A stretch of DNA of 41,135 nt from Vicinamibacteria bacterium (lineage in GTDB: Bacteria; Acidobacteriota; Vicinamibacteria; Fen-336): assembly GCA_023701125.1 (NCBI GenBank), contig JAMPXO010000034.1, positions 1 to 41,135 of the forward strand, in the 5' to 3' direction. The notes beneath the pieces are model-generated. The model was given only the letters and a program-made list of their open reading frames with translations, ran no database searches and was not told where the DNA came from. Below, one piece after another: positions 4,421 to 24,072 of the stretch. A program made the translations under genes and the position numbers. Each line of letters starts with the position of its first letter. Position 1 is the first letter of the stretch.

Positions 4421-5686
4421 TCAGGCGCCGCGCAGGGTGTCGAGCAGCGCGCGCAGCGGGCCCGTCAGCCGCCACGACCACGAGCCGCGCAGGGCGTCGA
4501 CCTGCGCCCGCAGCCGCACGTTCTCCGCGGCGAGCGAGGCGACGTCCGCCCGGGCGAGCCGCTCGCGCCCGGCGCCGTCGAGTTGCCCGGGCAACAGCGG
4601 CAGCGGTCCCTGGAGCAGGGCGTAGAGGCGGGCCGCGAGCGCGTTCTCCGGCCACTGCGCGGCGTCGGGCCCGAAGTCGGTGGGGAAGCCGCCGAAGCGC
4701 ATCGCCAACTCGTGGTCGGACACCTGGCGCATCGCCTGCACGGCTTCTCGCTTCGCGAGCGCGCCGCTCCAGTCGCCGAGCACCGCGTCGAGTCCCGCGG
4801 CGGCGCCGGCGGCGATCTCGAGCCAGCGCTCCGTCGCCGGGGCGTCGCCGCGGGCGCGGGCCGCGGTGGCCTCCGCGTGGAACGTGGCGATGCGCGAGAA
4901 GAGCAGCGCCAGCCCGGCCGCGAGCCGTGGCCCGAACGCTTCGCCGTCCGCATTCTTGACCAGCGTGAGCAGCGTGTTCCGGTACCAGTGGAAGTGGCGC
5001 CAGTGGTCGCCCATCCGCGACGACGTGGCGTGCTTGCGGTGCCGCACCTCGGCCTCGCGGGCGTAGACCACGCGGCCGCCCGCGAGGTTCAGCCGCCAGC
5101 CGAGGTCGACGTCCTCGTAGTAGGCGAAGTAGTCGCGGTCGAAGCCGCCCAACCCGAGGAACCGCTCGCGGCGAATGGCCATCGCTCCCGCGCAGGCGAA
5201 CGGGAGGGCCGCGCCGTCCGCGGCCTCGACGAAGCCCGGGTGCCACGACGAGCGCTGGAAGCCGAAGCCCGCGAGGTTGATCGCGCCGCCGCCGAACTCG
5301 AGGCCGTCGCCGTCCCACTCGCGGATGCGGCCGGCTGCCGCGTCCGCCCCGGAGGCCTCGGCGCGGGCGATCAGCGCCGCGCAGAAGCGCGGGTCGGCGG
5401 CCGCGTCGTTGTTGAGCAGGACCAGCCACTCGCCGCGGGCCGCCGCCGCGGCGCGGTTGTTGGCTTCCGCGAAGCCGAGGTTCGCGCCCAGGTCGAGCGC
5501 CCGCACGCCGGGGTGGTGCTCGCGCAGCCAGCCCAGGCTGCCGTCCGTCGAGCCGTTGTCGGCGACCAGCACCTCGATTTCGTCCGCGCCCAGCGTCTGG
5601 CGCGCCACCGAGGCCAGGCAGTCGTCGAGCAGGGCGCGCCCGTTCCACGACACGACCAGCACGGAGGCGCGAGGCGCGACGGGCAT
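4421..5686 (-). CDS. GT2 glycosyltransferase with C-terminal coiled-coil/SWRLTGPLR tail
   Basis: Predicted inverting sugar transferase, 421 aa, cytoplasmic or membrane-peripheral, in polysaccharide assembly. ASVLVVSWNGRALL opens a GT2 GT-A fold; VADNGSTDGS (41-50) and the metal-binding LNNDAAAD (91-98) follow, and EDVDLGWRL (191-199) is the usual acceptor-side acidic motif of rhamnosyltransferase-like GT2 enzymes. Residues about 250-350 are an extra helical region. The C-terminus has a short heptad-like helix followed by SWSWRLTGPLR, a module shared with the proteins at 11635 and 12731. The start is ATG at 5686, preceded by TACAAT with a 6-nt gap and no Shine-Dalgarno; the frame stays open upstream to 6622, but that part is antisense to the ABC ATPase gene. 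Convergent with the SGNH gene. Donor and acceptor are unknown. Confidence 0.85.
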   Translation of the reverse strand: MPVAPRASVLVVSWNGRALLDDCLASVARQTLGADEIEVLVADNGSTDGSLGWLREHHPGVRALDLGANLGFAEANNRAAAAARGEWLVLLNNDAAADPRFCAALIARAEASGADAAAGRIREWDGDGLEFGGGAINLAGFGFQRSSWHPGFVEAADGAALPFACAGAMAIRRERFLGLGGFDRDYFAYYEDVDLGWRLNLAGGRVVYAREAEVRHRKHATSSRMGDHWRHFHWYRNTLLTLVKNADGEAFGPRLAAGLALLFSRIATFHAEATAARARGDAPATERWLEIAAGAAAGLDAVLGDWSGALAKREAVQAMRQVSDHELAMRFGGFPTDFGPDAAQWPENALAARLYALLQGPLPLLPGQLDGAGRERLARADVASLAAENVRLRAQVDALRGSWSWRLTGPLRALLDTLRGA

Positions 5687-5692
5687 GGCGGG

Positions 5693-5698
5693 ATTGTA
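5693..5698 (-). promoter_or_regulatory. -10 element TACAAT of the minus-strand GT2 gene, leaderless-type
   Basis: On the minus strand TACAAT lies 6 nt before the ATG at 5686, in otherwise very GC-rich sequence. Transcription would start at or next to the ATG. There is no Shine-Dalgarno and no convincing -35 hexamer. The call rests on base composition and on the same spacing at other genes here. Confidence 0.5.
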
Positions 5699-5731
5699 GG
5701 CGGCGGGACGCCGCCGCGGCGTCGCCCCGGC

Positions 5732-5737
5732 TATGCT
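5732..5737 (+). promoter_or_regulatory. -10 element TATGCT of the ABC ATPase gene
   Basis: TATGCT lies 12 nt before the ATG at 5750, leaving an mRNA leader of only about 6 nt. A 6-bp stem (GACGCC/GGCGTC) lies just upstream, between this element and the divergent TACAAT element. Confidence 0.45.
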
Positions 5738-5749
5738 CTCCGCCTGTCC

Positions 5750-6499
5750 ATGAACGTGATCGAGGCGGAAGGTCTTCACAAGTCGTTCCGCATCCCGAGC
5801 GTGCGACGCGAGACGGTCCGCGAGCACTTCTTTGCGGCGTTCCGGCCGCGCTCGTTCGAGCGCCTGACGGTGCTCGATGGCGTGAGCCTGACGGTCCGCC
5901 GCGGCGAGACCCTCGGCATCATGGGCCGCAACGGCTCGGGCAAGAGCACGCTGCTCAAGATCCTGTGTGGAATCTACGCGCCGGACGCAGGGCGGGTGAC
6001 GCTCAACGCCACGATCACGCCGATCCTCGAGCTGGGCGTCGGCTGGAACCCGGAACTCGACGCGATCGACAACATCCTGCTGATCGGTACCGCGATGGGG
6101 ATGTCGCTGTCCGAGGCGCGCGCGGCGACCGCCGCGATCCTCGAGTTCGCGGGGCTCGAGCGGTTCGCCCGCCTCGAGCTCAAGCACTACTCGAGCGGCA
6201 TGGCCGCGCGCCTCGCCTATGCCGTGGCGTTCCACGCGGTGCGCGAGGTGCTGGTGCTCGACGAGGTGTTCGCGGTCGGCGACGCGGGTTTCCGCCAGCG
6301 CTGCGAGCGACGCTATCGCGAACTGGTGGCCGCGGGCCACACGGCGATCCTGGTCTCCCACTATCCGGAGATCGTCCGCAGCATGTGCGACCGCGCCTTG
6401 TTGATCGACGGCGGCCGCGTGGTGTGCGAGGGCTCCACCGCCGACGTCGCGGCGGCCTACCTCGAGCGCGTGGGCGCCGCTGCCGACCCGCCGGCCTGA
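5750..6499 (+). CDS. wzt: ABC transporter ATP-binding protein, Wzt/KpsT-like polysaccharide exporter
   Basis: Nucleotide-binding subunit of a polysaccharide/O-antigen ABC exporter; it would drive transfer of undecaprenyl-linked glycan across the inner membrane with the permease at 6507. It has 249 aa. Walker A GRNGSGKST (59-67), signature HYSSGMAARL (about 146-155), Walker B VLVLDE (167-172) and H-loop SH (203-204) are all present. The N-terminal SFRIPSVRRETVREHFF stretch and the ELGVGWNPELDAIDNI Q-loop region are typical of the Wzt/TagH/KpsT group. The protein stops just after the ATPase core, so it lacks the C-terminal carbohydrate-recognition domain that long Wzt proteins use to read a terminal cap. 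The gene converges on its presumed partner with 7 bp between stop codons instead of forming the usual operon. Confidence 0.9.
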   Translation: MNVIEAEGLHKSFRIPSVRRETVREHFFAAFRPRSFERLTVLDGVSLTVRRGETLGIMGRNGSGKSTLLKILCGIYAPDAGRVTLNATITPILELGVGWNPELDAIDNILLIGTAMGMSLSEARAATAAILEFAGLERFARLELKHYSSGMAARLAYAVAFHAVREVLVLDEVFAVGDAGFRQRCERRYRELVAAGHTAILVSHYPEIVRSMCDRALLIDGGRVVCEGSTADVAAAYLERVGAAADPPA

Positions 6500-6506
6500 G
6501 CGCGAC

Positions 6507-7310
6507 TCACAGGTGCTCGGCGATCTGGGGCGAGTAGCGGCGAAAGACGCCGACCCCGGTGGCCAGGATCGCGCCGGTGACCGCCAGCAGCAGCACGTGG
6601 GCGAACAGCGACGGCACGACACCGGCGACCAGCACGGAGCGCGAGAACTGGATCACGGGCGTGGGCGGCCAAACGTAGAGGTACTGGTGGAAGCGCTCCG
6701 GCAGGATCTCGAGCGGATAGATCACGGGCGCCACGAAAAAACCGGCGTGGGTGATCACCTCCCAGACCTGGTTGAGGTCGCGGAAGCGGAGGAGGAGCAC
6801 GCTGGCGGCCAGCGAGAAGCCGATCACGATCAGCAGCAGGCAGGCGACGTAGCCGAAGAAGAGCACCGCGTTGAGCAGCGAGGGGGCCCGGCCCTGGACG
6901 GCCAGGGCTGCGAGCAGCGTGCAGGCGACCACCGTCAGGGTCACCAGCGCGTTCGACGGTGCGGTCACGACGACGATCCAGCGCGGCAGGCGGCTCTTTG
7001 CGATCAGGTATCCCTTGGTCTGCAGCGAGAGCAGGCCCACCTTCGTGCCCTCCGCGAAGAACTCCCACAGGAAGAGCCCGATCAGCAGGTTCAGGCCGTA
7101 GTTGCGGTCCTCGGCGAAGATGAACGAGAAGACGGCCATCAGCGTGAGGAACATCATCATCGGCTTGAAGAGCGCCCACAGGAAGCCCATGGCGGTCCCG
7201 TGATAGCGCACCTTGAAGTCGGTCCGGACCAGGGTCCACAGCAGGCCGGCCCAGTCGTGGCTCGGGCGCGGGGCGGGCTCCCGCGGGGCTGCGAAATTCG
7301 CTGAGCTCAC
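6507..7310 (-). CDS. wzm: ABC-2 type permease, Wzm-like polysaccharide exporter
   Basis: Membrane subunit of the glycan exporter, 267 aa, ABC-2 family. After a cytoplasmic N-terminus (LVRTDFKVRYHGTAMGFLWALFKPM, the family's hallmark opening, split here by the text only) there are about six hydrophobic segments, including FLTLMAVFSFIF, LIGLFLWEFF, ALVTLTVVACTLLAAL, LLIVIGFSLAAS, and VLLLAVTGAILATGVGVF at the end. The amphipathic LRFRDLNQVWEV and the APVIYPLEILPE motif are typical of O-antigen exporters. I chose the GTG at 7310, 11 nt after the stop of the methyltransferase gene, so the two are probably cotranscribed. The frame is open further upstream but overlaps the methyltransferase. Pairing with the ATPase at 5750 is inferred from family and position. 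Confidence 0.88.
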   Translation of the reverse strand: MSSANFAAPREPAPRPSHDWAGLLWTLVRTDFKVRYHGTAMGFLWALFKPMMMFLTLMAVFSFIFAEDRNYGLNLLIGLFLWEFFAEGTKVGLLSLQTKGYLIAKSRLPRWIVVVTAPSNALVTLTVVACTLLAALAVQGRAPSLLNAVLFFGYVACLLLIVIGFSLAASVLLLRFRDLNQVWEVITHAGFFVAPVIYPLEILPERFHQYLYVWPPTPVIQFSRSVLVAGVVPSLFAHVLLLAVTGAILATGVGVFRRYSPQIAEHL

Positions 7311-7321
7311 GTTTCGGAAGT

Positions 7322-8095
7322 CTAGCCCAGCGGTCGCGTGCGACGCAGGAGCAGTCCCTGGTTGTGGATCTCCACCCCGCCCCAGCGCCAGGTCTCGAGC
7401 TGGCCGGCGTCGAGCCGGGTCTGGAAGCGCTCGACGATCTCGTGCTCGCGCCGGCAGGCCTGGAGCAGCGGGCCTTCCGCGAGCAGCCACATGGGGTAGC
7501 TCGCTGTGCCGATCGACGGCGGCACCTGCTCGACCAGCAGCCGCGACCGGTCCGGAGACAGCGGCATGCGGTCGAGGAAGACGAACGGCGCGCCGAGGGC
7601 GAGCAGCCCGTCGAGCGCGGCCCAGGGGTGTTCGAGGTACTGCAGGACGCTGGAGGCGATCACGAGTGCCGGGCGGCCCCCGCGCGTGGCCTCGTCGAGG
7701 CGGGAGAAGAACCGCAGGTCCGGGCGCTGGAACTCGCGCGCACCGGCCGCCGCGTAGCTGGGCTGCTCCACGACCTGCCACGTCGCGGCGGGCAGGTTCG
7801 CCAGCGCCGCGCGGTGCTGCCAGTACGCGCTTCCCAGGGCGCCGCCGAAGTCGAGCACCAGCGCCGGGCCAGGAGCCGTCACGAGCGCAGCTCGCAGCGC
7901 GCGCAGCAGCGGCGGGTTCGACCACGGCTGACGGAAAGCCACCCCGTCCCGCTCGAAGGCCGCAGCGCCCCGGGCCACCTCGCGGGTGGCCGCGATCACC
8001 CGCTCGAGGATGTCCGGCGCGTCGTATCCGGCCGAGGCTGCGCGCGCGTCCGGCCAGGAGTCGAACTCGCCCCTCAGCCACAGCCAGTCGCTCAC
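7322..8095 (-). CDS. LIC12133-family putative methyltransferase
   Basis: Predicted SAM-dependent methyltransferase of the family first named for a Leptospira O-antigen-locus protein (TIGR04325-like). Of its 257 aa, recognisable parts are the EFDSWPDARAASAGYD opening, the SAM-binding LVLDFGGALGSAYW, WQVVEQPSYAAAG, the VIASSVLQYLEHPW segment, FVFLDRMPLS, and TASYPMWLL. The family is usually found in surface-polysaccharide loci and probably methylates a sugar; the exact substrate is unknown. Here it lies just upstream of the exporter permease on the same strand, so methylation may be coupled to chain completion or export. I chose GTG at 8095, which has TAGCGT 7 nt upstream; TTG at 8129-8131 is an alternative. 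The first residues before the S-W motif are few, so a slightly longer protein is possible. Confidence 0.8.
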   Translation of the reverse strand: MSDWLWLRGEFDSWPDARAASAGYDAPDILERVIAATREVARGAAAFERDGVAFRQPWSNPPLLRALRAALVTAPGPALVLDFGGALGSAYWQHRAALANLPAATWQVVEQPSYAAAGAREFQRPDLRFFSRLDEATRGGRPALVIASSVLQYLEHPWAALDGLLALGAPFVFLDRMPLSPDRSRLLVEQVPPSIGTASYPMWLLAEGPLLQACRREHEIVERFQTRLDAGQLETWRWGGVEIHNQGLLLRRTRPLG

Positions 8096-8102
8096 GTCGT
8101 CG

Positions 8103-8108
8103 ACGCTA
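8103..8108 (-). promoter_or_regulatory. -10 element TAGCGT of the methyltransferase/permease pair
   Basis: On the minus strand TAGCGT ends 7 nt before the GTG at 8095, the leaderless spacing seen at several genes here. No Shine-Dalgarno is present. The hexamer is a weaker match than the others. Confidence 0.35.
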
Positions 8109-8157
8109 GCCGGGCAGGGCAGCGCACGCAAGGCGACGCAGTTCCGCCCGCTTCGGC

Positions 8158-8163
8158 CACAAT
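8158..8163 (+). promoter_or_regulatory. -10 element CACAAT of the GT gene at 8170
   Basis: CACAATTG is the only AT-containing stretch upstream of the GTG at 8170; CACAAT ends 6 nt before it. No Shine-Dalgarno or -35 is visible. Divergent from the methyltransferase promoter. Confidence 0.4.
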
Positions 8164-8169
8164 TGCGGG

Positions 8170-9087
8170 GTGAGCGGGACGCCCGTCGCACTGTTCGTCT
8201 ACAACCGCCTCGACACGACGACGAGGGTCTTCGCGCGGATCGCCGCGGCGCGGCCGCCTGTCCTGCTCGTCGTCGCCGACGGCCCGCGAGCCGATCGGCC
8301 AGGAGATGCGGAGCGCTGCGCCGAGGTGCGCTCGCTGGTGACCCGGCCCGACTGGCCCTGCGAGGTTCGGACCTGCTTCTCGGAGGTCAACCTCGGGCTC
8401 GGCAGGCGCTTCTCTTCCGGGCTCTGCTGGGCGTTCGACGAGGTCGAGGAGGCGGTGATCCTCGAGGACGACTGCCTCCCGGACCCGACCTTCTTCGGCT
8501 ACTGCGACCAGTTGCTCGAGCGGTTCCGTGGCGATCCGCAAGTGATGATGATCTCCGGGGACAACTACCAGTTCGGGACCAGCCGGGGCGAGCACAGCTA
8601 CTTCTTCTCGCACGGGGTGGGCACCTACGGCTGGGCCACGTGGAGGCGGGCGTTCTGCCACTACGACTTCGCGATGCGCGATTGGCCGCGCGAGCGCGAG
8701 CGCGGCTGGCTCCGCGAGATCTGGCCCGTGCCCGAACTCGAGCGCTACTGGCAGGCCCGCTTCGACGAGACGCACCGTGGCGAGATCGACACCTGGGACT
8801 ACCAGTGGGCCTTCGCGATGTGGCGCCACCGCGGCCTGCAAGTCGTGCCGGACCGCAACCTGATTTCGTACATCGGTTGCCTGCCTGACGCCGTGCACAC
8901 CACCGACCCACGCGCGGCCTACTGCGGCCTGCCGACGGAGCCGATGCCGGCGGCGCTGCACCATCCGCGCGCCCGCGCGCGCAGCCTCGGGGCGGATCTC
9001 TACGAGTTCCACCGCATCTTCGAGAACCTCCCCCACGAGGTGGCGCGAGAGCTGGAGCGGGCCGCGCTCGCGCGACTCGGTTCGTGA
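8170..9087 (+). CDS. GT-A glycosyltransferase, GNT-I/GT2-like
   Basis: Predicted sugar-nucleotide transferase, 305 aa. It opens PVALFVYNRLDTTTRVF, has LLVVADGPR as the nucleotide-binding strand, NLGLGRRFSSGLCWAF, and the metal-binding AVILEDDCLPDPTFF (E99-D101). This EDDC-x-P-x-x-x-FF arrangement followed by VMMISGDN and GVGTYGWATW resembles the bacterial relatives of N-acetylglucosaminyltransferase I. WDYQWAFAMW is a further family motif. The start is GTG at 8170 with CACAAT 6 nt upstream. The GTG of the next gene overlaps its TGA stop (GTGA), so translation of the two is coupled. The sugar transferred is unknown. Confidence 0.85.
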   Translation: MSGTPVALFVYNRLDTTTRVFARIAAARPPVLLVVADGPRADRPGDAERCAEVRSLVTRPDWPCEVRTCFSEVNLGLGRRFSSGLCWAFDEVEEAVILEDDCLPDPTFFGYCDQLLERFRGDPQVMMISGDNYQFGTSRGEHSYFFSHGVGTYGWATWRRAFCHYDFAMRDWPRERERGWLREIWPVPELERYWQARFDETHRGEIDTWDYQWAFAMWRHRGLQVVPDRNLISYIGCLPDAVHTTDPRAAYCGLPTEPMPAALHHPRARARSLGADLYEFHRIFENLPHEVARELERAALARLGS

Positions 9088-10739
9088 CGCCGGATCGCGG
9101 CCGCGGCGGGGCGCTGCTCCCGGTGCTGGCCGCCTTCGCCCTGGCCGTGGTGGCGGTGGGCCCGGGGCGGGAGACGGCCGTCGACGACGACTGGGCGTAC
9201 GCGCTGACCGTGCGGGCGCTGCTGGAGACGGGCACCTACGCTCCCCACGACTGGGTCGCGGCCAATCCCGTCTTCCACGTCGTCTGGGGCGGGCTCGGCT
9301 CGCTGCTCCTCGGGCCGTCGATGGGAGCGCTGCGGGCCTCGACCCTGCTGCTGGCGCTGGCGGGCCTCGTCGCCTTCGACCGCCTGGCTCGCGACCACGG
9401 CTTGCGCAGTGACGAGGCCGCGCTGCTGACCGCGTCGCTGCTGGCCGGCCCACTGTTCCTGCGGCTCGCCTTCTCGTTCATGACCGACGTGCCCTACCTG
9501 GCGCTGTGCCTGCTGGCACTGCTGGCGTGGAGCCGCGCCCTCGGGCAGGGCAGCGTGACCTTCGCGTTCGCGGGCTCGCTGTGCGCGGCCGCGGCCATCC
9601 TGACCCGGCAGTTCGGCGTCGTCCTGATCGTCGCTTTCGTGGTGGCCACGCTGCTGCGGGCCCGCCCGCTGGGGGCGCGCCTGGCGTCGGCCCTGGTCGC
9701 GTGCGCCACGGCGCTCCCGGCCCTCGCGGCGCTCTGGCAGCGCGGCTTCGTCGGGTCCGGCCGCCCGCGCTCGCTGCATTGGTTGCTGAACGACCAGGTG
9801 AAGTACCTGTCCGACCCGGCCCTCGCCTGGGAGTGGCTGTGGAGGCCCGCCGTGGCCTTCGTGTATCTCGGGGCGATGGCGGCGCCGGTGCTCGTCGCCG
9901 CCGTCGTGGGCAGGCTGCCCTCCGAGGCCATCGGACCGGGTGCGAGGCGCCGCTTCGCCGTGGCCCTGGGGGCGCTCCTGGCCGCGCTCGCGCTCGGTTG
10001 GCAGGGGCTCGGCCGGCCGCTGCTCCTGCCGCTCCTGCCCTTCAGCCTCGACGTGCTGCACGGCTGGCCCCGGTGGCTGCTCGTGCTGCTCACCGGGCAG
10101 GCGTTGCTGGCGGGCGCCGCGCTCGTGGTGATCCTCGCCGGGCACCTCGCACGAAATGGCTGGCGGCTGGGGGAAGCGGAGACGCTCGTGATGCTGTTCT
10201 CCGGCCTGACCCTCGTCAGCACCGTGCTCTTCGTCCAGTACTGGGACCGCTACCTGCTGCCGCTGGTCCCGGCGGCCCTGCTGATCGCCGGCCGCGCGCT
10301 CGCGGGTCAGGCGTCACGCAGGGCGCTGGCCGCGGGCTTCGCGGTCACCGCCCTCGCCGGCGTCGCCGGTGTCGCCTGGGTCCGGGCGGAGCTGGTGCGC
10401 GGCGAGGCGATCTGGACGGCGAGCGAACGGGTCGTCTCTGCCGGCGTCGCCCGCGAGGCAGTGTTGTCCTCGTGGGAATGGGGCAACTACAACGGGTTCT
10501 TCGATCGTTTCGTCGCGCAGCGGCGGCCGCTGCCCGCCACGTCGCTGGTGCGGCTTCAGGACGAGGTCGTCGCGTCCTGGCACGAGGTCTACCCGGCGCG
10601 GGCCGCGGCGATGGTCGGGAACTACCCGGCGCACCCCGCCGATCCCGACTGGGTCGTGGCGTCGCGGGTGCCGATCCGCGACGAGTTCCTGCGCGAGCAG
10701 ACGATCTACGTGCTGCTCCGCAGAAAACCCGTGCCGTGA
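9084..10739 (+). CDS. GT39/ArnT-like polytopic glycosyltransferase
   Basis: Integral membrane glycosyltransferase of the GT-C type, 551 aa. These enzymes use polyprenyl-phosphate sugars and act on the outer face of the inner membrane. The N-terminal segment LLPVLAAFALAVVAVG is followed by ETAVDDDWAYA (residues 30-40), the first extracytoplasmic loop acidic motif that carries the catalytic Asp in PMT/ArnT relatives. About ten to twelve hydrophobic segments follow, with a soluble C-terminal part from about residue 440 to the end. The start codon overlaps the stop of the upstream gene by 4 nt. With the DPM1-like GT2 and DUF2304 at 20640-21766 it could form a donor-synthesis/flipping/transfer chain; this link is inference. 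Confidence 0.8.
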   Translation: MTPDRGRGGALLPVLAAFALAVVAVGPGRETAVDDDWAYALTVRALLETGTYAPHDWVAANPVFHVVWGGLGSLLLGPSMGALRASTLLLALAGLVAFDRLARDHGLRSDEAALLTASLLAGPLFLRLAFSFMTDVPYLALCLLALLAWSRALGQGSVTFAFAGSLCAAAAILTRQFGVVLIVAFVVATLLRARPLGARLASALVACATALPALAALWQRGFVGSGRPRSLHWLLNDQVKYLSDPALAWEWLWRPAVAFVYLGAMAAPVLVAAVVGRLPSEAIGPGARRRFAVALGALLAALALGWQGLGRPLLLPLLPFSLDVLHGWPRWLLVLLTGQALLAGAALVVILAGHLARNGWRLGEAETLVMLFSGLTLVSTVLFVQYWDRYLLPLVPAALLIAGRALAGQASRRALAAGFAVTALAGVAGVAWVRAELVRGEAIWTASERVVSAGVAREAVLSSWEWGNYNGFFDRFVAQRRPLPATSLVRLQDEVVASWHEVYPARAAAMVGNYPAHPADPDWVVASRVPIRDEFLREQTIYVLLRRKPVP

Positions 10740-10753
10740 GGCCACCGCGGATG

Positions 10754-11638
10754 TCAGGCGCCGCGCTGGACGGGGCGGCCGATCGGAGCTCCCGCGGCGA
10801 GCAGTTCGCGCAGGTAGGGCTGGTAGACGTGCCACAGCAGGGCCGGGGACAGCGGTGTCTCGTACTCGGCGAGGCCCGAGCGGAAGGCGAACGGGCGCAG
10901 GTCGCGCAGGCCGTGGAAGTGGTAGTAGACGAGCGGCGCGCCATCGACCGTCAGCCGCCCGTCCTGCAGACGCAGCTCGCGCTCCGCGGCGTTCCAGGGG
11001 GCGAGGCCCGCGCCCGGGTGGCGCAGGACGACGGTGCCGGGGAAGAGCTGCGGCCACTCGTCGAGGTACTTCTGATCGGCGAAGCGGTCGCCGTCGATCC
11101 GGTCGTGGCACCACTCGAGGCACTGCTCGCGCCAGCGCAGGAGACAGCGCTGCGCCTCGGGCTGGCGGGTGAACGTCAGCCAGCCGACGTTGAAGCGGCC
11201 CCACGCGGCCAGGTCGGCGAGGCGCTCGGGGAAGCGGTGCTCGACGATCGCGAGGGGCCCGGGGCCGAGTTCCTCGAACAGCGGCTCGGGGCTCGCGAAG
11301 AAGTAGAGGTCCGCGTCGAGGTACGTGAGCGTCGAGATCGAGGCCTCGCGCTCCAGCACGTGGGCGAGCAGCACGGGCGTCAGCGTGAAGTAGTACGCGG
11401 CCGTCGAGCGGTCGTGCTTCGCGGCCAGCAGCTCCGGTCGCTCGCGCTCCAGGTCGCGCAGGCGCAGCGCCGTGACGTCGGGCTCGGGGCAGACGCCGGC
11501 GAAGGCCGCGTCGTCGAGGCACAGCGCGTGAAGGCGGAACGGACGTGCGTGCCGGCGCAGCGAGGCGAGCAGCGCCTGTGCGCGCGGCAGGTAGTGGCCG
11601 TCGAAGTACGTGCAGTACTCGCGGACGGGAGCGCTCAC
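10754..11638 (-). CDS. GT8-like glycosyltransferase
   Basis: Predicted cytoplasmic glycosyltransferase, 294 aa. It opens EYCTYFDGHYLPRAQALLASL, typical of GT8-like proteins that act on a growing chain, and carries the metal-binding LTYLDADLYFFASPEPLFEE (DAD), then FNVGWLTFTR and DQKYLDEWP, the family's acceptor-side motif. The C-terminal part contains PLVYYHFHG, a conserved His motif. The GTG start at 11638 overlaps the stop of the upstream minus-strand gene (GTGA), so the two are translationally coupled. Convergent with the GT39 gene, 14 bp apart. Specificity is not predictable from sequence. Confidence 0.82.
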   Translation of the reverse strand: MSAPVREYCTYFDGHYLPRAQALLASLRRHARPFRLHALCLDDAAFAGVCPEPDVTALRLRDLERERPELLAAKHDRSTAAYYFTLTPVLLAHVLEREASISTLTYLDADLYFFASPEPLFEELGPGPLAIVEHRFPERLADLAAWGRFNVGWLTFTRQPEAQRCLLRWREQCLEWCHDRIDGDRFADQKYLDEWPQLFPGTVVLRHPGAGLAPWNAAERELRLQDGRLTVDGAPLVYYHFHGLRDLRPFAFRSGLAEYETPLSPALLWHVYQPYLRELLAAGAPIGRPVQRGA

Positions 11639-12567
11639 GACCGCACCCCCCGCGCCGCCAGCCACTCCGCGATCCGCCGCCGGCCGGCCGCGACCTCGTC
11701 GGCCAGCTTCGCCTCCGCCGCGCGGTCGATCTCGTAGCGCTCGTCGCCGCCCTCGTTGACCGTCACATGCTCCGGGCACATGAAGACGTGGGCGGGGGCG
11801 TAGATCTCCGTGATCCAGTCGTCGCTGTACCAGTTGCGGAAGGCCTCGGGGAACAGCGTGCCGAAGATCTCGCCGTGGACGCGCGACACGAAGGCCTGGG
11901 TGAGGATGCGGGTGGTGACGGCCTCGACGGGGCCGGCGACGCCGAGCCCCGGGTGGACCGGGTTGGCGTCGAGCGCCGAGGGGAGGCGCCGTGCCCAGCC
12001 GGGGGTGAGCAGCGCGACGTCGTCCCCGAGCTGGAAGAAGTCGTCGGCGCCTTCGTCCCACGCGATCCGGAACAGGGCATTCCACGCCCGGCACGGGGCA
12101 TGTTCCGCGCCGCTCAGCACGTGCAGCGAGGCCCGCGCGGGGCGGCCGTGGAGGGCCGCGTCGAGCGCCGCCTGGAGCGCCGCGCGGCGCTCCGGGTCGC
12201 CGTAGAAGAGGTCGCTGTCGTCGATCCCCACCAGCAGGCGATAGCGGATGTCGCCCTGCCAGCTGGCGCTGGCCAGGAAGGCGGGCAGGAAGTGGCGCAG
12301 GAGATCGGTGTCGTCGATCGTGCGCAGCGCGCGGCCGCGACTGGTGACCGGGACGAGCAGCGCGATCGTGCGCTGCGGCCCGGTGTGCGCACCGCCGCGC
12401 CGCGCGTCGAGCGCGGCCCGCACGGGCGCGGTCCAGCGCCAGATCCGCGAGCCCTCGATCGCGCGGAGCTGGTGGCGGGTGACCTCCAACTGGGCGCGGA
12501 GCCGGTTCCGCTCGCGGAGCGCGTCGCGTACCGCCCGCTCCAGCTTCTCGCGCTCCGACGGCTCCAT
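11635..12567 (-). CDS. Putative GT-A glycosyltransferase with N-terminal coiled coil
   Basis: 310 aa; I cannot place it in a named family with certainty. Residues 1-40 form a charged heptad-like helix, followed by GSRIWRWTAPVRAALD (about 39-54), a version of the S-x-x-W-R-x-T-x-P-x-R module. From about 65 the protein looks like a GT-A fold: TIALLVPVTSRG, YRLLVGIDDSDLFY, CRAWNALFRIAWDEGADDFF, and QLGDDVALLTPGWA, where GDD could hold the metal. FRNWYSDDWITEIY is a conserved-looking acidic segment. The ATG start has a good GGAGGG sequence about 5 nt upstream, unlike the leaderless-looking genes nearby. It is coupled by overlap to the GT8-like gene downstream. Function as a glycosyltransferase is inferred from motifs and context. 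Confidence 0.65.
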   Translation of the reverse strand: MEPSEREKLERAVRDALRERNRLRAQLEVTRHQLRAIEGSRIWRWTAPVRAALDARRGGAHTGPQRTIALLVPVTSRGRALRTIDDTDLLRHFLPAFLASASWQGDIRYRLLVGIDDSDLFYGDPERRAALQAALDAALHGRPARASLHVLSGAEHAPCRAWNALFRIAWDEGADDFFQLGDDVALLTPGWARRLPSALDANPVHPGLGVAGPVEAVTTRILTQAFVSRVHGEIFGTLFPEAFRNWYSDDWITEIYAPAHVFMCPEHVTVNEGGDERYEIDRAAEAKLADEVAAGRRRIAEWLAARGVRS

Positions 12568-12730
12568 TGCCCTCCGAAAAGCCGGCTCCTGTATCCTGCG
12601 GCTCCGGGGCGTCCGCGCGCTCGGGCCGTGAATCGAGGCGCTGGACGCGAGCCTCGAGGACCTGGAGTGAGGTTATGGGGCGAGTTCGCGGCAGGTCAAG
12701 CCGCAGGACGGCGAGCGAGGCGCGAATCGC
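12568..12730. promoter_or_regulatory. Divergent intergenic region between two GT genes
   Basis: 163 bp between divergent starts. The minus-strand gene has a GGAGGG ribosome-binding site. TATCCT at 12592-12597 (plus strand) is a possible -10, which would give the plus-strand gene a leader of about 130 nt. That leader can form two stems: CGAGGC/GCCTCG, and GCGGC/GCCGC close to the start. I recognise no known riboswitch. Confidence 0.35.
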
Positions 12731-13828
12731 GTGAGCGACGTCACGTCCCCCGCGCCCACGACCGACGCGAGCCCGCTCGTCTCGGTCGTGGTGCGCACGC
12801 TGGGCCGGGCTTCGCTCCAGGTGGCCGCCGACTCGGTCGCAGCCCAGTCCTGGCCGGCGATCGAGCTGGTCGTCGTCGATGCGGCGGGGCAGGGACTGCA
12901 GGCCCCGGACTGCGGCCGCTTCCCGGTGCGGGTGTGCGGCGCGGGCGGCCGCCTCGCCCGGGCCGCCGCCGCGAACGCGGGCCTGCGCGCCGCTCAGGGC
13001 CGCTTCGTGATCCTGCTCGACGACGACGACTGGCTCTACCCCGGCCACGTCGCCAAGCTGGCGGCCGCGCTCGCGGACGAGCGCGTCGGCCGCGCGGCCT
13101 ACTCCGGCGTCGAGGCGATCGGGCTCGACGTGGACGGCACCCGCGCGCGGCAGGTGTGGGACGACCCGTTCGACCCGCTGCGGCTGCTGTACGAGAACTT
13201 CATCCCGATCCACGCGATGGCCTTCGCGCGCTCCCTCGTCGACGAAGGCTGCCAGTTCGACGAGACGCTGGACGTGCTCGAGGACTGGGACTTCTGGCTG
13301 CAGGTGGCCGCGCGCACCGCGCTGCGCCACCTGCCGGGCATCACCGCGGCCTATCGCACGCCGGGCGCCAGCGGCGTCCACGACCCGAACTCGAAAGCAG
13401 CGCGCAGGGCCGCCGAGACGATCGTGAACCGCTGGGCCGGGCGTTGTCCCGCGGTGCAGGTCGCGCGCCTGCTCGGCGAACTGCACCATCGCGAGCTGCA
13501 CGCGTTTCGCGACCTGCGCAGTCAGCTGGCCGGCACCGAAGAGGCGTGGCGACTCGAGCGCGAGGACCGACGCGTGCGCGAGGTGGAGTTCGAGGGCGAA
13601 CGTGCGGGCTGGCGCACGGACCGGCGGCTGCTGGAGGGCGAGCGCGACGGCTGGCACCGCCAGGCCGTCGAGCAGCAGGCGGGGCGCGAGGCCGCGGAGC
13701 GCCACGCCCGGGCGCTCGAGGCGCGCATCGCGGAGCTGCTCGGCTCGATCAGCTGGCGGCTGACCGCGCCCCTGCGCTGGCTGCACGGCCGAGTGGCCGG
13801 GGTGGGTGGGGCCCGCCGCCGCAGCTGA
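12731..13828 (+). CDS. GT2 glycosyltransferase with long coiled-coil tail and SWRLTAPLR motif
   Basis: 365 aa. GT2 domain in residues 15-235: LVSVVVRTLGRASL, ELVVVDAAGQG, ANAGLRAAQGRFVILLDDDDWLYPGH (split here: the metal site is LLDDDDW), and DVLEDWDFWLQVA. From about residue 250 to 340 it is a strongly charged, Arg/Glu-rich coiled coil, then AELLGSISWRLTAPLRWL at the C-terminus. The tail is the clearest copy of the module shared with the proteins at 4421 and 11635. The start is GTG at 12731, with a long possible leader and no good Shine-Dalgarno. Its stop overlaps a perfect 14-bp palindrome shared with the convergent gene. Confidence 0.83.
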   Translation: MSDVTSPAPTTDASPLVSVVVRTLGRASLQVAADSVAAQSWPAIELVVVDAAGQGLQAPDCGRFPVRVCGAGGRLARAAAANAGLRAAQGRFVILLDDDDWLYPGHVAKLAAALADERVGRAAYSGVEAIGLDVDGTRARQVWDDPFDPLRLLYENFIPIHAMAFARSLVDEGCQFDETLDVLEDWDFWLQVAARTALRHLPGITAAYRTPGASGVHDPNSKAARRAAETIVNRWAGRCPAVQVARLLGELHHRELHAFRDLRSQLAGTEEAWRLEREDRRVREVEFEGERAGWRTDRRLLEGERDGWHRQAVEQQAGREAAERHARALEARIAELLGSISWRLTAPLRWLHGRVAGVGGARRRS

Positions 13829-13840
13829 ACGCTAGCGTTC
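13827..13840. repeat. Perfect 14-bp palindrome spanning two convergent stop codons
   Basis: GAACGCTAGCGTTC is fully self-complementary with a CTAG core. Two bases of the TGA of the plus-strand GT2 gene and the whole TAG of the minus-strand fusion gene lie inside it. It may be a protein-binding site or a minimal bidirectional terminator; no T tract is present. Confidence 0.6.
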
Positions 13841-16123
13841 GAGTCGCTCGGGGGCGAGACCGATCGCCTGGCGGTACTTGACCTCCATCTCCGCCGCGCA
13901 CTCCTCGATCGATTTGACCGCCGGCGCTGACGCGGCCAGCGTGTGCGCGAGGTCGGGCTCGTCGAGCAGGCGGCGCAGGACCCGGGCCAGGTCCGCCGCG
14001 TCGCCGGCCCGGAAGCGCAGGCCGCCGCGGCCGTCCGCGACCAGCTCGCGCATGCCGCCGAGGTCGGAGACGACCACCGGGCGGCGGGCGAGGAAGGCCT
14101 CGTGGATCGTGAGTGGCGAGTTCTCGTACCAGAGCGAAGGCACGACCAGCACGTCGAGGTCGCCGAGCACCGCCGCGATCTGCTCGGGCGCGAAGGCGCC
14201 GTGCAGTCGCACCGACGGGGCCAGCGCCCGCACCCGGGCGACGATCTCCTTCGCCTCCGGCGTGCGCTCGTGGTCGCCGTGGACGTGCAGTTCCACGCGC
14301 GCGTCGGCCACCGCCGCGCAGGCGGCGGCCAGCACCTCGAGCCCCTTGTGCTCGATCAACGAGCCGACGAAGCCGACCCGCAGCGGTGACGTGGCCGAGC
14401 GCCGGGGGAGCGGCGCCACCCCCGCGGCCCAGTCGCGCGCGAAACCGTAGTCGCTGACGACGAGGCGCCCCGGGTCGAGGCCGGCCTCCGCGGCCCTGTC
14501 GCGCAGGAAGCGCGACGGCGCGATCAGGAAGCTCGCGGCGTCGAGGCCCGCGCCCATCACCGCCGGGCGCAGCGCGAGGTGGGCGACGAGATCGGTGCGG
14601 GCCCCGCCGGCGCGCCGGCCCACGAACGGCGCGGCCCACGACGCGAGGGCCGAGCGCGTGAGCGGCGCGAGCGCCTGCAGGGCCGGCACCAGCTCGGGCC
14701 GCGCCGAGACACAGGCCGCGCAGGCCAGTGCCCCGGGCGGCGCGCCCGCGCACGGCGTCCGCGGATCGCGCAGCAACTGGACCTTCGGGCACCGGAACCA
14801 GTAGTCGGCGAGGGTGACGAGCGACGGCACGCCGTGCTCGCGGGCGATCTGCGGCAGCCGCGCGGAGAGGTGGATCAGGTGCTGGAAGTGGACGACGTCG
14901 GGCCGCACCCGCGCGAGCACGTCGCGGAACGCCGCCTCGGCCTCGGGCACCGCGTAACCCTCGCCGACGTGCTGCAGCCGCAGGTGGTTGGCGAAGCGGA
15001 ACACGCGCAGGTCCGCCTGACGCGTCTCGTCGAGCGTGCGGTCCGCCAGCGCCGGGTCCGCCGTGCGGTGCAGGATGCTGACGTCGTGGCCGCGCTCCGA
15101 GAGTGCCTCCGCCAGCGCCGCGCTGAACACCTCGGTGCCGGCGACGGCCTCGGGTGGGAAGGAGTGGGCGACGATCAGCACGCGCAGCGTCGCGGCTGGC
15201 ACCGGCCGCGGCGTCGGCCGTCGCTCGCGGGTGCGCCCGCCCTCGCGGAACCCGTCGAAGCCGTTCCAGTGGTAGCGCAGGAGGGCGGGCGCCGCCGCCG
15301 CTCGTCGCAGCGTCCCGTGCCCCGTGGCGGCGAGAGCCGCGAGGTCGTCGCGGGTGTGGCGCACGGCCAGGGTCAGCGCATCGCGACGGTTCGCGACGTT
15401 GACGCGGTCGAGGTAGGCGCGGTTGAACCAGGCGTCGATTCGCGCCCGCGCGCGCACCCCGGCGGGGTCGTACTCGTGCGAGTGATGGACCGCGGCAGCC
15501 GGCTCGAAGGCGATCGCGTGCCCGGCCTCCAGCGCGCCCCGCGCCCACAGCAGGTCTTCGCCGAAGGCGGTGCGCGCGAAGGGCAGCACGCGCCAGGCAG
15601 AGCGGCGCAGGCAGGAGGCGACGTCGTTGAAGTCCACGAAGAGCCGTCGCTCGTGCGGGGACATCGCGTCGTAGCGGGCGCGGTCGTCGATGCGGACGAC
15701 GCGGCGAAGGGCGCGGAAGGCGAAGTCGCGCTCGGCCGCCCGCCGCGCCAGCGCGCTGGCCTCGGGGCGCGGCAACACCCGGCAGTACGCGCCCGCCACC
15801 GCGGAATCGTCGAAGCACGCCGCCAGCGCTCGCAGCCAGTCGCGGGAGGCGGGCCAGGCGTCCTGGACGAGGAACGCGATCAGGTCGCCCTCGGTCAGCA
15901 GCGCGCCGAGGTTGCGGGTGTCGCCGTGGTCGAAGTCGCGCGGGTCGATCACGCGCAGGCGCACGGGGAACCGCGCGGCGACCTCGCGGGTGCGGTCGGT
16001 CGAGTCGGAGTCGACCACCAGCACGTCGAACGGGAACGGCGCCTGCTGGGCGAACACCGCCTCGAGGCAGCGCCCGAGGGTGGCCTCCCCGTTGCGGGTG
16101 GGGATGACGACCGAGACCTTCAC
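13832..16123 (-). CDS. GT2-GT4 bifunctional glycosyltransferase
   Basis: 763 aa with two catalytic domains, likely adding two successive sugars. Residues 1-300 are a GT2 rhamnosyltransferase-like domain: VSVVIPTRNGEATL, VLVVDSDSTD, FDHGDTRNLGA, FLVQDAWP, and AFGEDLLWARGAL. Residues about 318-760 are a GT4 GT-B domain: LRVLIVAHSFPPEAVAGTE, the CPKVQLLRDPRTPC cysteine segment, SRFLRDRAAEAGL, VGFVGSLIEHKGLEVL, and VVPSLWYENSPLTIHEAFLA (read as two pieces around the E-x7-E motif). The GTG start at 16123 faces a CTAG-containing element. The protein at 18502 has the same two domains in the reverse order, and the genes at 16212 and 17570 encode the same two types separately. Confidence 0.87.
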   Translation of the reverse strand: MKVSVVIPTRNGEATLGRCLEAVFAQQAPFPFDVLVVDSDSTDRTREVAARFPVRLRVIDPRDFDHGDTRNLGALLTEGDLIAFLVQDAWPASRDWLRALAACFDDSAVAGAYCRVLPRPEASALARRAAERDFAFRALRRVVRIDDRARYDAMSPHERRLFVDFNDVASCLRRSAWRVLPFARTAFGEDLLWARGALEAGHAIAFEPAAAVHHSHEYDPAGVRARARIDAWFNRAYLDRVNVANRRDALTLAVRHTRDDLAALAATGHGTLRRAAAAPALLRYHWNGFDGFREGGRTRERRPTPRPVPAATLRVLIVAHSFPPEAVAGTEVFSAALAEALSERGHDVSILHRTADPALADRTLDETRQADLRVFRFANHLRLQHVGEGYAVPEAEAAFRDVLARVRPDVVHFQHLIHLSARLPQIAREHGVPSLVTLADYWFRCPKVQLLRDPRTPCAGAPPGALACAACVSARPELVPALQALAPLTRSALASWAAPFVGRRAGGARTDLVAHLALRPAVMGAGLDAASFLIAPSRFLRDRAAEAGLDPGRLVVSDYGFARDWAAGVAPLPRRSATSPLRVGFVGSLIEHKGLEVLAAACAAVADARVELHVHGDHERTPEAKEIVARVRALAPSVRLHGAFAPEQIAAVLGDLDVLVVPSLWYENSPLTIHEAFLARRPVVVSDLGGMRELVADGRGGLRFRAGDAADLARVLRRLLDEPDLAHTLAASAPAVKSIEECAAEMEVKYRQAIGLAPERLER

Positions 16124-22164: not shown

Positions 22165-22194
22165 CGGCCGCCACCGACCGCATTGCCGCCGACC

Positions 22195-24072
22195 GTGGTT
22201 TCGCGCGCCCTCATCGTCGGCACCGCCGGCCACATCGACCACGGCAAGAGCACGCTCGTCCGCGCGCTGACCGGGATCGACCCCGACCGCCTCAAGGAGG
22301 AGAAGGAGCGCGGGATCACGATCGACCTCGGCTTCGCGCACTGCGCGCTGCCCTCGGGCCAGGTCGCCTCCTTCGTCGACGTGCCTGGCCACGAGCGTTT
22401 CGTGCGCCACATGCTGGCGGGCGCCCACGGCATCGACGCGGTGATGCTCGTGGTGGCGGCGGACGAGTCGGTGATGCCGCAGACCCGCGAGCACTTCGAG
22501 ATCTGCCGGCTGCTCGGCGTCGAGCAGGGGCTGGTCGCGCTGACCCGCTGCGATCTCGCGGACGACGAGCTTCAGGAACTGGCCGAGGCCGAGGTGCGCG
22601 ACCTGGTGCGCGGCTCGTTCCTCGACGGGGCGCCGCTGCTGCGGGTCTCCGCCCGCACGGGCGCGGGGCTCGACGACCTGCGCCGCGCGCTCGACGTGCT
22701 GGCCGCGCGGCCCCGCCCGCGGCCCGAGGACGCGCTGTTGCGGTTGCCGATCGACCGCGTCTTCACGCTGCACGGCTTCGGCACCGTGGTCACCGGCACG
22801 CTGGTCGCGGGCCGGCTGGCGCTGGGCGACGAGGTCGAGGTGCTGCCCAGTGGACGCCGCGCGCGGGTGCGCGGGCTGCAGGTCCACGGCCGCTCGCAGG
22901 ACGAGGTCGGGGCCGGCAACCGGGCCGCCGTCAACCTGGCGGGGCTGGACGTGGCCGACCTCGCCCGCGGCGAGGTCGTCTGCCACCCGGGGCAACTGCG
23001 CGCGACGTCGATCCTCGACGTACGGCTCGACCTGCTGCCGGGCGCGCGCGAGCTGACCGATCGCACCCGGGTCCGGGTCCACGCCGCCAGCGCCGAGGTG
23101 CTGGCGCGCGTCCGCCTGCCCGGCGGCCCGCTGGCCCCGGGCCAGGGCATCGATGCGCAACTGCGGCTGGAGGCGCCGGTGCTGGCGGTGCGCGGAGACC
23201 GGCTCGTGGTGCGCTCCTATTCGCCGGCCGAGACGATCGGCGGCGCTCGCGTGCTGGACCCGGCGCCCGCCCGCCGCCGTCCCGGCTCGGCGCCGCCCGC
23301 GGGGGCCGAGGCCGCGGCCGTGATCGCGGCGCTGGTGGGGGCCGGCGCGCGCGCGGGGGTCGACCTGCGAGACCTGGCGGCCCGCCTCGGGCTCGCCCCG
23401 GAGGTGCTGCGACCGCGGCTCGCTGCGGCGGCGGTCGAGCTGGTGCCGGGCGAGAGCGGTGCCGAGACCGCGATCGCCCGCGCGGCACTCGCGGAACTCG
23501 CCACGGCCGCGGAGGCGGTGCTGCGCCGCTTCCACGCCGAGCAGCCGCTGCGAGCGGCGATGCCGCGCGAAGAACTGAGGGCGCGCGCGTTCGCGCGGGC
23601 GGCGGGCGGGGCCTTCGGCGTGGTGACGGACGACCTGCTGCGCCGCGGCGTCGTGCGCGCGGAGGCGGACGGGTTCGCGCTCGCGAGCCACGCCGTGCGC
23701 CTGGGCGGTGAAGACGCGGCGGTCGCGGAGGCGCTGCGGAGCCGGTCCGGGGCCGCGGGCGTCGAGGGGTTCGAACCGGCCCAGGCGGGTGCGGGCCTCG
23801 GCCGTGACCCGCGGGTCGTCGAGCGGGTGTTGCGGGTGCTGGTGCAGGAGGGCGCTCTGGTGCGCGTGGGGGAGCGCCTGGTCGACGTCGCCGCGCTGAC
23901 CGGGCTGGCCGCGGGGCTGCGCGCGCGGGTGGCTCCCGGCGCCCGGGTGGACGTGGCGGAACTCAAGGCGATGACCGGCCTCTCGCGCAAGTTCGTGATC
24001 CCGCTGCTCGAGTGGCTGGACCGGGCGCGGGTCACTCGCCGCGCCGGGGCCGACCGCTACTTGATCGGGTGA
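22195..24072 (+). CDS. selB: Selenocysteine-specific elongation factor SelB
   Basis: GTPase that delivers Sec-tRNA(Sec) to UGA codons marked by a SECIS element. 625 aa from GTG at 22195; TTG at 22183 is an alternative start. GTP-binding motifs: [14 protein letters not shown] (G1), [10 protein letters not shown] (G2), [13 protein letters not shown] (G3, DxxG), and ALTRCDL at the G4 position, where TKxD or NKxD is usual. Domain II has [16 protein letters not shown], diagnostic of SelB over EF-Tu. The C-terminal third consists of winged-helix domains, ending [15 protein letters not shown] and [12 protein letters not shown], which bind the SECIS RNA. selA, selC and selD are not in the window, and I saw no selenoprotein gene here. 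The following PilZ gene starts at or just after the stop. Confidence 0.93.

Follow-up and report, generated by a model that had tools for sequence, protein, structure and literature searches.

A portable coiled-coil and cap module, probably of WbdD type, on three proteins of a Vicinamibacteria glycan locus

The DNA analysed here (the window; 41,135 nucleotides, contig JAMPXO010000034.1 of GenBank assembly GCA_023701125.1) is from a Vicinamibacteria bacterium of the phylum Acidobacteriota. It contains a glycan locus in which three proteins, referred to as A, B and C, share a coiled coil followed by a motif of the form S-x-x-W-R-x-T-x-P-x-R. We consider it likely that the segment is a portable module of the type present in WbdD of Escherichia coli. 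The coil would act as a spacer and oligomeriser, and the motif (the cap) with the helix that follows would act as a kinked, cationic, amphipathic membrane dock, so that the enzymes of an assembly line are held at set distances from the membrane.

The shared segment in proteins A, B and C

The three proteins and the parts of the segment are as follows, with heptad positions given relative to the motif tryptophan.

4421..5686, minus strand: protein A, GT2-family glycosyltransferase of 421 aa, module at the C-terminus (PF00535, E=3.3e-24)
4484..4570, minus strand: coiled-coil part of A, approximately residues 373-401 (V-23 L-20 N-16 L-13 V-9 L-6; AlphaFold helix)
4451..4483, minus strand: motif SWSWRLTGPLR of A, residues 402-412 (AlphaFold, helix break at the first serine)
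4424..4450, minus strand: amphipathic C-terminal helix of A, residues 413-421, ALLDTLRGA (AlphaFold helix, tail residues 52-69, pLDDT >90)
11635..12567, minus strand: protein B, 310 aa, module at the N-terminus (without a Pfam or NCBIfam match)
12451..12555, minus strand: coiled-coil part of B, approximately residues 5-39 (L-34 L-20 L-16 L-9 I-6; GC at the third codon position, GC3, 0.98)
12394..12450, minus strand: motif SRIWRWTAPVR of B and the next helix, residues 40-58 (sequence, BLAST)
12731..13828, plus strand: protein C, GT2-family glycosyltransferase of 365 aa, long helix and C-terminal module (PF00535, E=8.8e-13)
13448..13744, plus strand: long helical or coiled-coil stretch of C, approximately residues 240-338, about 15 nm if fully helical (AlphaFold)
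13745..13777, plus strand: motif SISWRLTAPLR of C, residues 339-349 (sequence, profile)
13778..13825, plus strand: basic C-terminal tail of C, residues 350-365, WLHGRVAGVGGARRRS (sequence)

The C-terminal end of A reads ...DALRGSWSWRLTGPLRALLDTLRGA and that of C ...ARIAELLGSISWRLTAPLRWLHGRVAGVGGARRRS, while B starts with MEPSEREKLERAVRDALRERNRLRAQLEVTRHQLRAIEGSRIWRWTAPVRAALDARRGG, the motif itself occupying residues 40-50 of its 310. The GC3 was 0.97-1.00 in the module stretches of all three proteins, and the motif frames are therefore true coding frames. This bears out an earlier note on this DNA, which had placed the motif C-terminally in A and C and near the N-terminus of B. An open reading frame start at 6622 was rejected as the start of A, which begins at 5686. 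Two congeners have orthologs of A with 73% identity over residues 5-418, and the module is retained in both.

The catalytic parts were as different as the note had claimed. In BLAST against a very small database, the tails matched each other (A-B E=1.6e-7, A-C 4.5e-5, B-C 0.06), but the catalytic parts gave only E=1.1 for A-C and no match of B to A or C. The further claim that all three are glycosyltransferases holds for A and C; for B it is unproven because neither Pfam nor NCBIfam gave a match. The catalytic part of B (residues 60-310) also had no sequence match in the PDB, and the DD motifs GIDDSD and QLGDDV within it suggest a putative GT-A-like enzyme. No catalytic domain that would cap a chain (with methyl, phosphate or Kdo) was recognised by Pfam or NCBIfam on the three proteins, neither a methyltransferase nor a kinase, and none is therefore classed as WbdD.

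A profile search of the 5.4-Mb genome found exactly three copies of the segment, all within the same 9.4-kb stretch. Chance likeness, or common descent of three related glycosyltransferases, might be proposed for them, as two of the three are GT2-family and the motif is short. However, the independent-site expectation for S..WR.T.P.R is 0.0002 per 41 kb and 0.03 per genome, and descent would not account for tails that are alike on catalytic parts that are not.

Coil register and cap across bacterial genomes

A 32-base DNA pattern encoding S-x-S-W-R-[LIVMF]-T-x-P-[LIVMF]-R was searched in 84,980 genomes, yielding at least 120 loci and at least 123 matches. The invariance of S, S, W, R, T, P and R in this set is by construction, because the pattern fixes them, and only the flanking features count as evidence. 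Several motif positions were near-invariant also in a set that was not selected by the strict pattern. Among the matches listed, 119 of 123 were in frame and closed off a coiled-coil-like stretch, and four were chance matches. The taxa represented were Alpha-, Beta- and Gammaproteobacteria, Acidobacteria, Chloroflexi, Bacteroidetes, Verrucomicrobia (Opitutaceae), Planctomycetota, Actinobacteria and others. Within the window's phylum (297 genomes), the forward pattern matched four times (the window and three others, those three coinciding with profile hits) and the reversed pattern not once. The broader profile matched 17 of the 297; profile hits with E >0.001 were read and were mostly out-of-frame chance. 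The wide survey refutes chance or simple descent, which we regard as having practically no probability.

The coil is locked to the motif in a fixed 3-4 heptad register, although the search selected neither coil nor enzyme. In the 119 proteins, hydrophobic residues peaked at -6, -9, -13, -16, -20, -23, -27, -30, -34, -37, -41 and -44 relative to the tryptophan, with 51% hydrophobics at the a/d positions versus 12% elsewhere. A Rayleigh phase test over -45..-10, with the last turns left out, gave p ~1e-33, which is only indicative because the sequences are not fully independent. A follows this register, and so do B and C, in which several a/d residues are polar or small. In an AlphaFold prediction from 97 aligned tails (pLDDT >90), a helix at positions 20-50 breaks at S51, the first serine of S-x-S-W, and a second helix runs from 52 to 69. 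A single-sequence prediction for C gave a helix over residues 240-357 (pLDDT 79-93 over approximately residues 271-350), the remainder of the model, including the catalytic part, being poor.

Past the motif, hydrophobic residues recurred at +2, +6, +9, +13 and +16, basic residues were frequent at +11, +14, +15, +17 and +18, and acids were rare; the mean net charge over +8..+18 was +2.2. A basic tail is present in A, B and C. The hydrophobic moment of the post-motif stretch (0.57, 0.39 and 0.19, respectively) is clear in A and weak in C. A hydropathy scan detected no strong transmembrane segment in A, B or C. None of 47 C-terminal carriers was at transmembrane-typical hydropathy (19-residue mean 1.9), and none reached 1.6 inside the module.

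These features also bear on whether the segment serves oligomerisation only, as a coil with conserved helix capping that would di- or trimerise soluble enzymes and dock nowhere. The locked heptads are consistent with this, as is the helix bundle of WbdD, which drives trimerisation (PMC3482155). Nevertheless, the conserved W, R, T, P, L and R and the cationic amphipathic extension would be needless at a plain coil end, and the WbdD C-terminus has been reported to contain an amphipathic helix that locates the protein at the inner membrane (PMC3447403; membrane association also in PMC6286764). Oligomerisation without docking is thus improbable.

No curated Pfam or NCBIfam model covers the cap motif; the 97 tails weakly match scattered, mostly generic coiled-coil models. 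Profile-based matches to solved structures were to generic coils only and stopped at or just past the coil, and none of the papers searched contained any of seven spellings of the motif. Six of ten matches in viral contigs (L253, L255, L257, L259, L260 and L262) resemble genuine modules at protein ends; these may belong to glycan enzymes carried by prophages or to host DNA. A single 469-aa open frame (L081, L186 and L206; G329:C1:780242-780499) has two tandem module copies about 50 residues apart.

Carriers, portability and export genes

The position of the module is bimodal: among the matches listed, 54 proteins stop 6-24 residues past the motif and 55 run on for more than 130. The C-terminal carriers included GT2 enzymes (9 of 47), FkbM and other methyltransferases, sulfotransferases, PIG-L deacetylases, 2OG oxygenases and pyruvyl transferases. 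Where the module is internal, a methyltransferase most often preceded the coil, and what followed the coil was GT2 in 40 of 54 cases and often GT4. Proteins encoded after wzm and wzt on enterobacterial plasmids were methyltransferase-coil-cap-GT4-GT4, methyltransferase-coil-cap-RgpF and O8 WbdD. One locus (L272:8850-10154) has the module fused to a non-transferase, an SMP-30/lactonase-like beta-propeller.

Relatives of the window proteins also show portability. Only one homolog of B was found among the 193 genomes of the class searched. It belongs to a sister genus (G010), is 59% identical over residues 52-309, starts with MRIAILIPV and is without the module; the module therefore moves as a unit. 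B's own module was most like the one at the C-terminus of another GT2, encoded next to wzt in the G010 genome (E=2.7e-9), and the wzt-adjacent place in relatives is taken by different GT2 enzymes with the module. In two congeners the module seemed to be fused to Wzt, but this was an artefact of the open frame, the real gene being a GT2 that starts just after wzt. No relatives of B were found in viral contigs and plasmids. Together with the unrelated enzymes that carry it C-terminally, internally or, in B, N-terminally, these results support the earlier description of a portable adaptor at either end.

Two single proteins (L135 and L152) have a C-like domain (39-41% identical) before the coil and an A-like domain (34-36%) after the cap, an order which suggests that A and C may work together. 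Such fusions would be an indirect sign that a polymerase glycosyltransferase is recruited in the window as well. Matching coils within one genome, as a sign of hetero-oligomers, were not seen: the likeness of co-resident coils did not exceed that of coils from separate genomes (12 pairs, p=0.21).

The window has both export genes, which makes this an ABC transporter-dependent glycan locus, as well as a further glycosyltransferase gene.

5750..6499, plus strand: Wzt-type ABC ATPase, 249 aa (PF00005, E=2.9e-22; best NCBIfam NF050108)
6507..7322, minus strand: Wzm-type ABC permease (PF01061, E=1.2e-10; NF050109)
13832..16123, minus strand: GT2-GT4 double glycosyltransferase without the module, convergent with C (domain matches)

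The GT2-GT4 protein is a likely partner. The wzt and wzm genes are convergent in the window and in the sister genus G010 (L265), and in tandem (wzm-wzt) in a congener, G001 (L268). Two further coding genes of the glycan locus, 8170-9087 (plus strand) and 10757-11632 (minus strand), had no Pfam match. Elsewhere in the window, a gene for SelB, the selenocysteine elongation factor, lies at 22183-24072, and no tRNA was found in the window.

Wzm or Wzt was encoded in the same 8-kb stretch at 29 of 116 module loci versus 0 of 40 control GT2 loci (Fisher p 9e-5), and at 9 of 23 in the same-genome subset (p 3.5e-5). The controls were 40 general GT2 genes of module-carrying genomes, without matching for location in polysaccharide clusters; the enrichment therefore demonstrates association with polysaccharide clusters at least. 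The enrichment on glycosyltransferases of ABC-dependent loci that the earlier note had named as support was therefore present as regards the loci; it did not extend to a restriction to glycosyltransferases, since methyltransferases, sulfotransferases, deacetylases and others are also carriers.

In a more far-reaching reading, the cap is a locus-wide address tag, acquired by glycosyltransferases, methyltransferases, sulfotransferases and deacetylases of one pathway so as to gather them on a membrane or protein platform at the exporter, with the coil length of each enzyme setting the stage of chain growth for its action. We regard this as possible but rather doubtful; if true, the order of polysaccharide assembly could be readable from coil lengths.

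WbdD and other known systems

The earlier note knew of no established function for the motif. A functional precedent exists and has been tested in WbdD, which terminates the chains of polymannose O-antigens. The O8 WbdD of E. coli has SRSWRITQPLR at the end of its coil (...MADLHNSRSWRITQPLRWLSLQRQLL), and the O9 WbdD (708 aa) has SRSWRMTKGYR with W595 in the same heptad register (...LRQEIEKIHRSRSWRMTKGYRYLGLQIHLL). The coil of WbdD acts as a ruler, its length determining that of the chain (PMC5082667, PMC6286764), and the C-terminal region recruits WbdA (PMC3482155, PMC11231755). A construct of residues 1-600, which stops inside the motif, was expressed and purified well, and the full-length protein was hard to solubilise. 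The membrane docking or scaffolding proposed in the note fits, by analogy, with WbdD, in which the motif lies within the part reported to bind the membrane and WbdA, and the cap itself may be the docking element of WbdD.

The recruitment of WbdA also introduces the main rival to membrane docking, in which the cap is a docking site for a common protein partner (a polymerase glycosyltransferase, Wzm/Wzt or another coil protein) and any association with the membrane would be secondary. Such a site would be consistent with the near-invariance of several motif positions, which exceeds the need of a generic membrane helix, with the GT2 and/or GT4 domain after the cap in internal cases, and with the Wzm/Wzt enrichment. 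On the other hand, the carriers are very different enzymes from many phyla, no one partner was seen throughout, the coils within a genome are no more alike than those between genomes, and the post-motif helix is cationic and almost acid-free. We consider protein docking distinctly possible, and both roles may coexist.

If membrane docking is the primary role, as we favour, the variable-length coil would oligomerise the enzyme and set the distance between its catalytic domain and the membrane. At the fixed cap, S-x-S-W-R-hydrophobic-T-x-P-L-R, the first serine would interrupt the coil helix, and a short helix, cationic and amphipathic, would follow, its Trp, Leu/Ile and Arg positioned to rest on the inner leaflet. 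A, B and C would then be held in one assembly, with the catalytic domain of B directly at the membrane, that of A a few nm off, and that of C at the end of a helix of about 100 residues and 15 nm, long enough to serve as a ruler.

Membrane binding, oligomerisation and ruler action are inferred for A, B and C, and several points weigh against this interpretation. The post-motif hydrophobic moment is modest (mean z 1.3), as is the amphipathicity of C, and convergence is possible for short motifs. The O9 WbdD deviates from the consensus, with KGYR in place of xPLR, and membrane and WbdA binding of WbdD are not assignable to the motif alone because about 100 further residues follow it. Furthermore, approximately three quarters of the module loci are without Wzm/Wzt within 8 kb.

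The module gives the tail of the well-studied WbdD a recognisable form with a defined sequence, register and position, and it allows coiled-coil glycan enzymes that are probably membrane-docked to be picked out in any genome. As it locates the membrane-side end of candidate rulers of chain length, coil lengths become measurable from sequence. It is also a small tag and a candidate for placing enzymes at the membrane.

Like the window proteins, WbdD of O9/O9a and O8 combines a catalytic domain, a coil of the same register, an S-R-S-W-R-x-T cap and a basic helix in a wzm/wzt locus. Unlike them, WbdD is a methyltransferase (plus a kinase in O9a) and continues for about 100 residues after the cap, whereas the GT2 enzymes A and C have 9-16 post-motif residues and B has a whole domain after the motif. 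The window Wzt also stops after the ATPase domain, without the C-terminal carbohydrate-binding domain found in the Wzt of O8/O9a. Coil proteins have been described that either stop after the coil or run on into glycosyltransferase modules (PMC11231755), and the orthologs that end after the coil match the bimodal layout seen here. In the same study, Klebsiella pneumoniae O7 ORF6 and O12 WbbB have the order terminator, coil and C-terminal polymerase glycosyltransferase, which resembles the internal form by layout alone; in the window, the parts are on separate polypeptides. Other cytosolic glycan and lipid A enzymes that act on lipid-linked sugars (LpxK, PimA and other GT-B enzymes) also dock peripherally at the membrane surface through a basic amphipathic helix, with a Trp in PimA (PMC6286764). 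In those enzymes the helix is part of one fold, whereas the module of the window is a separable coil and cap found across unrelated folds.

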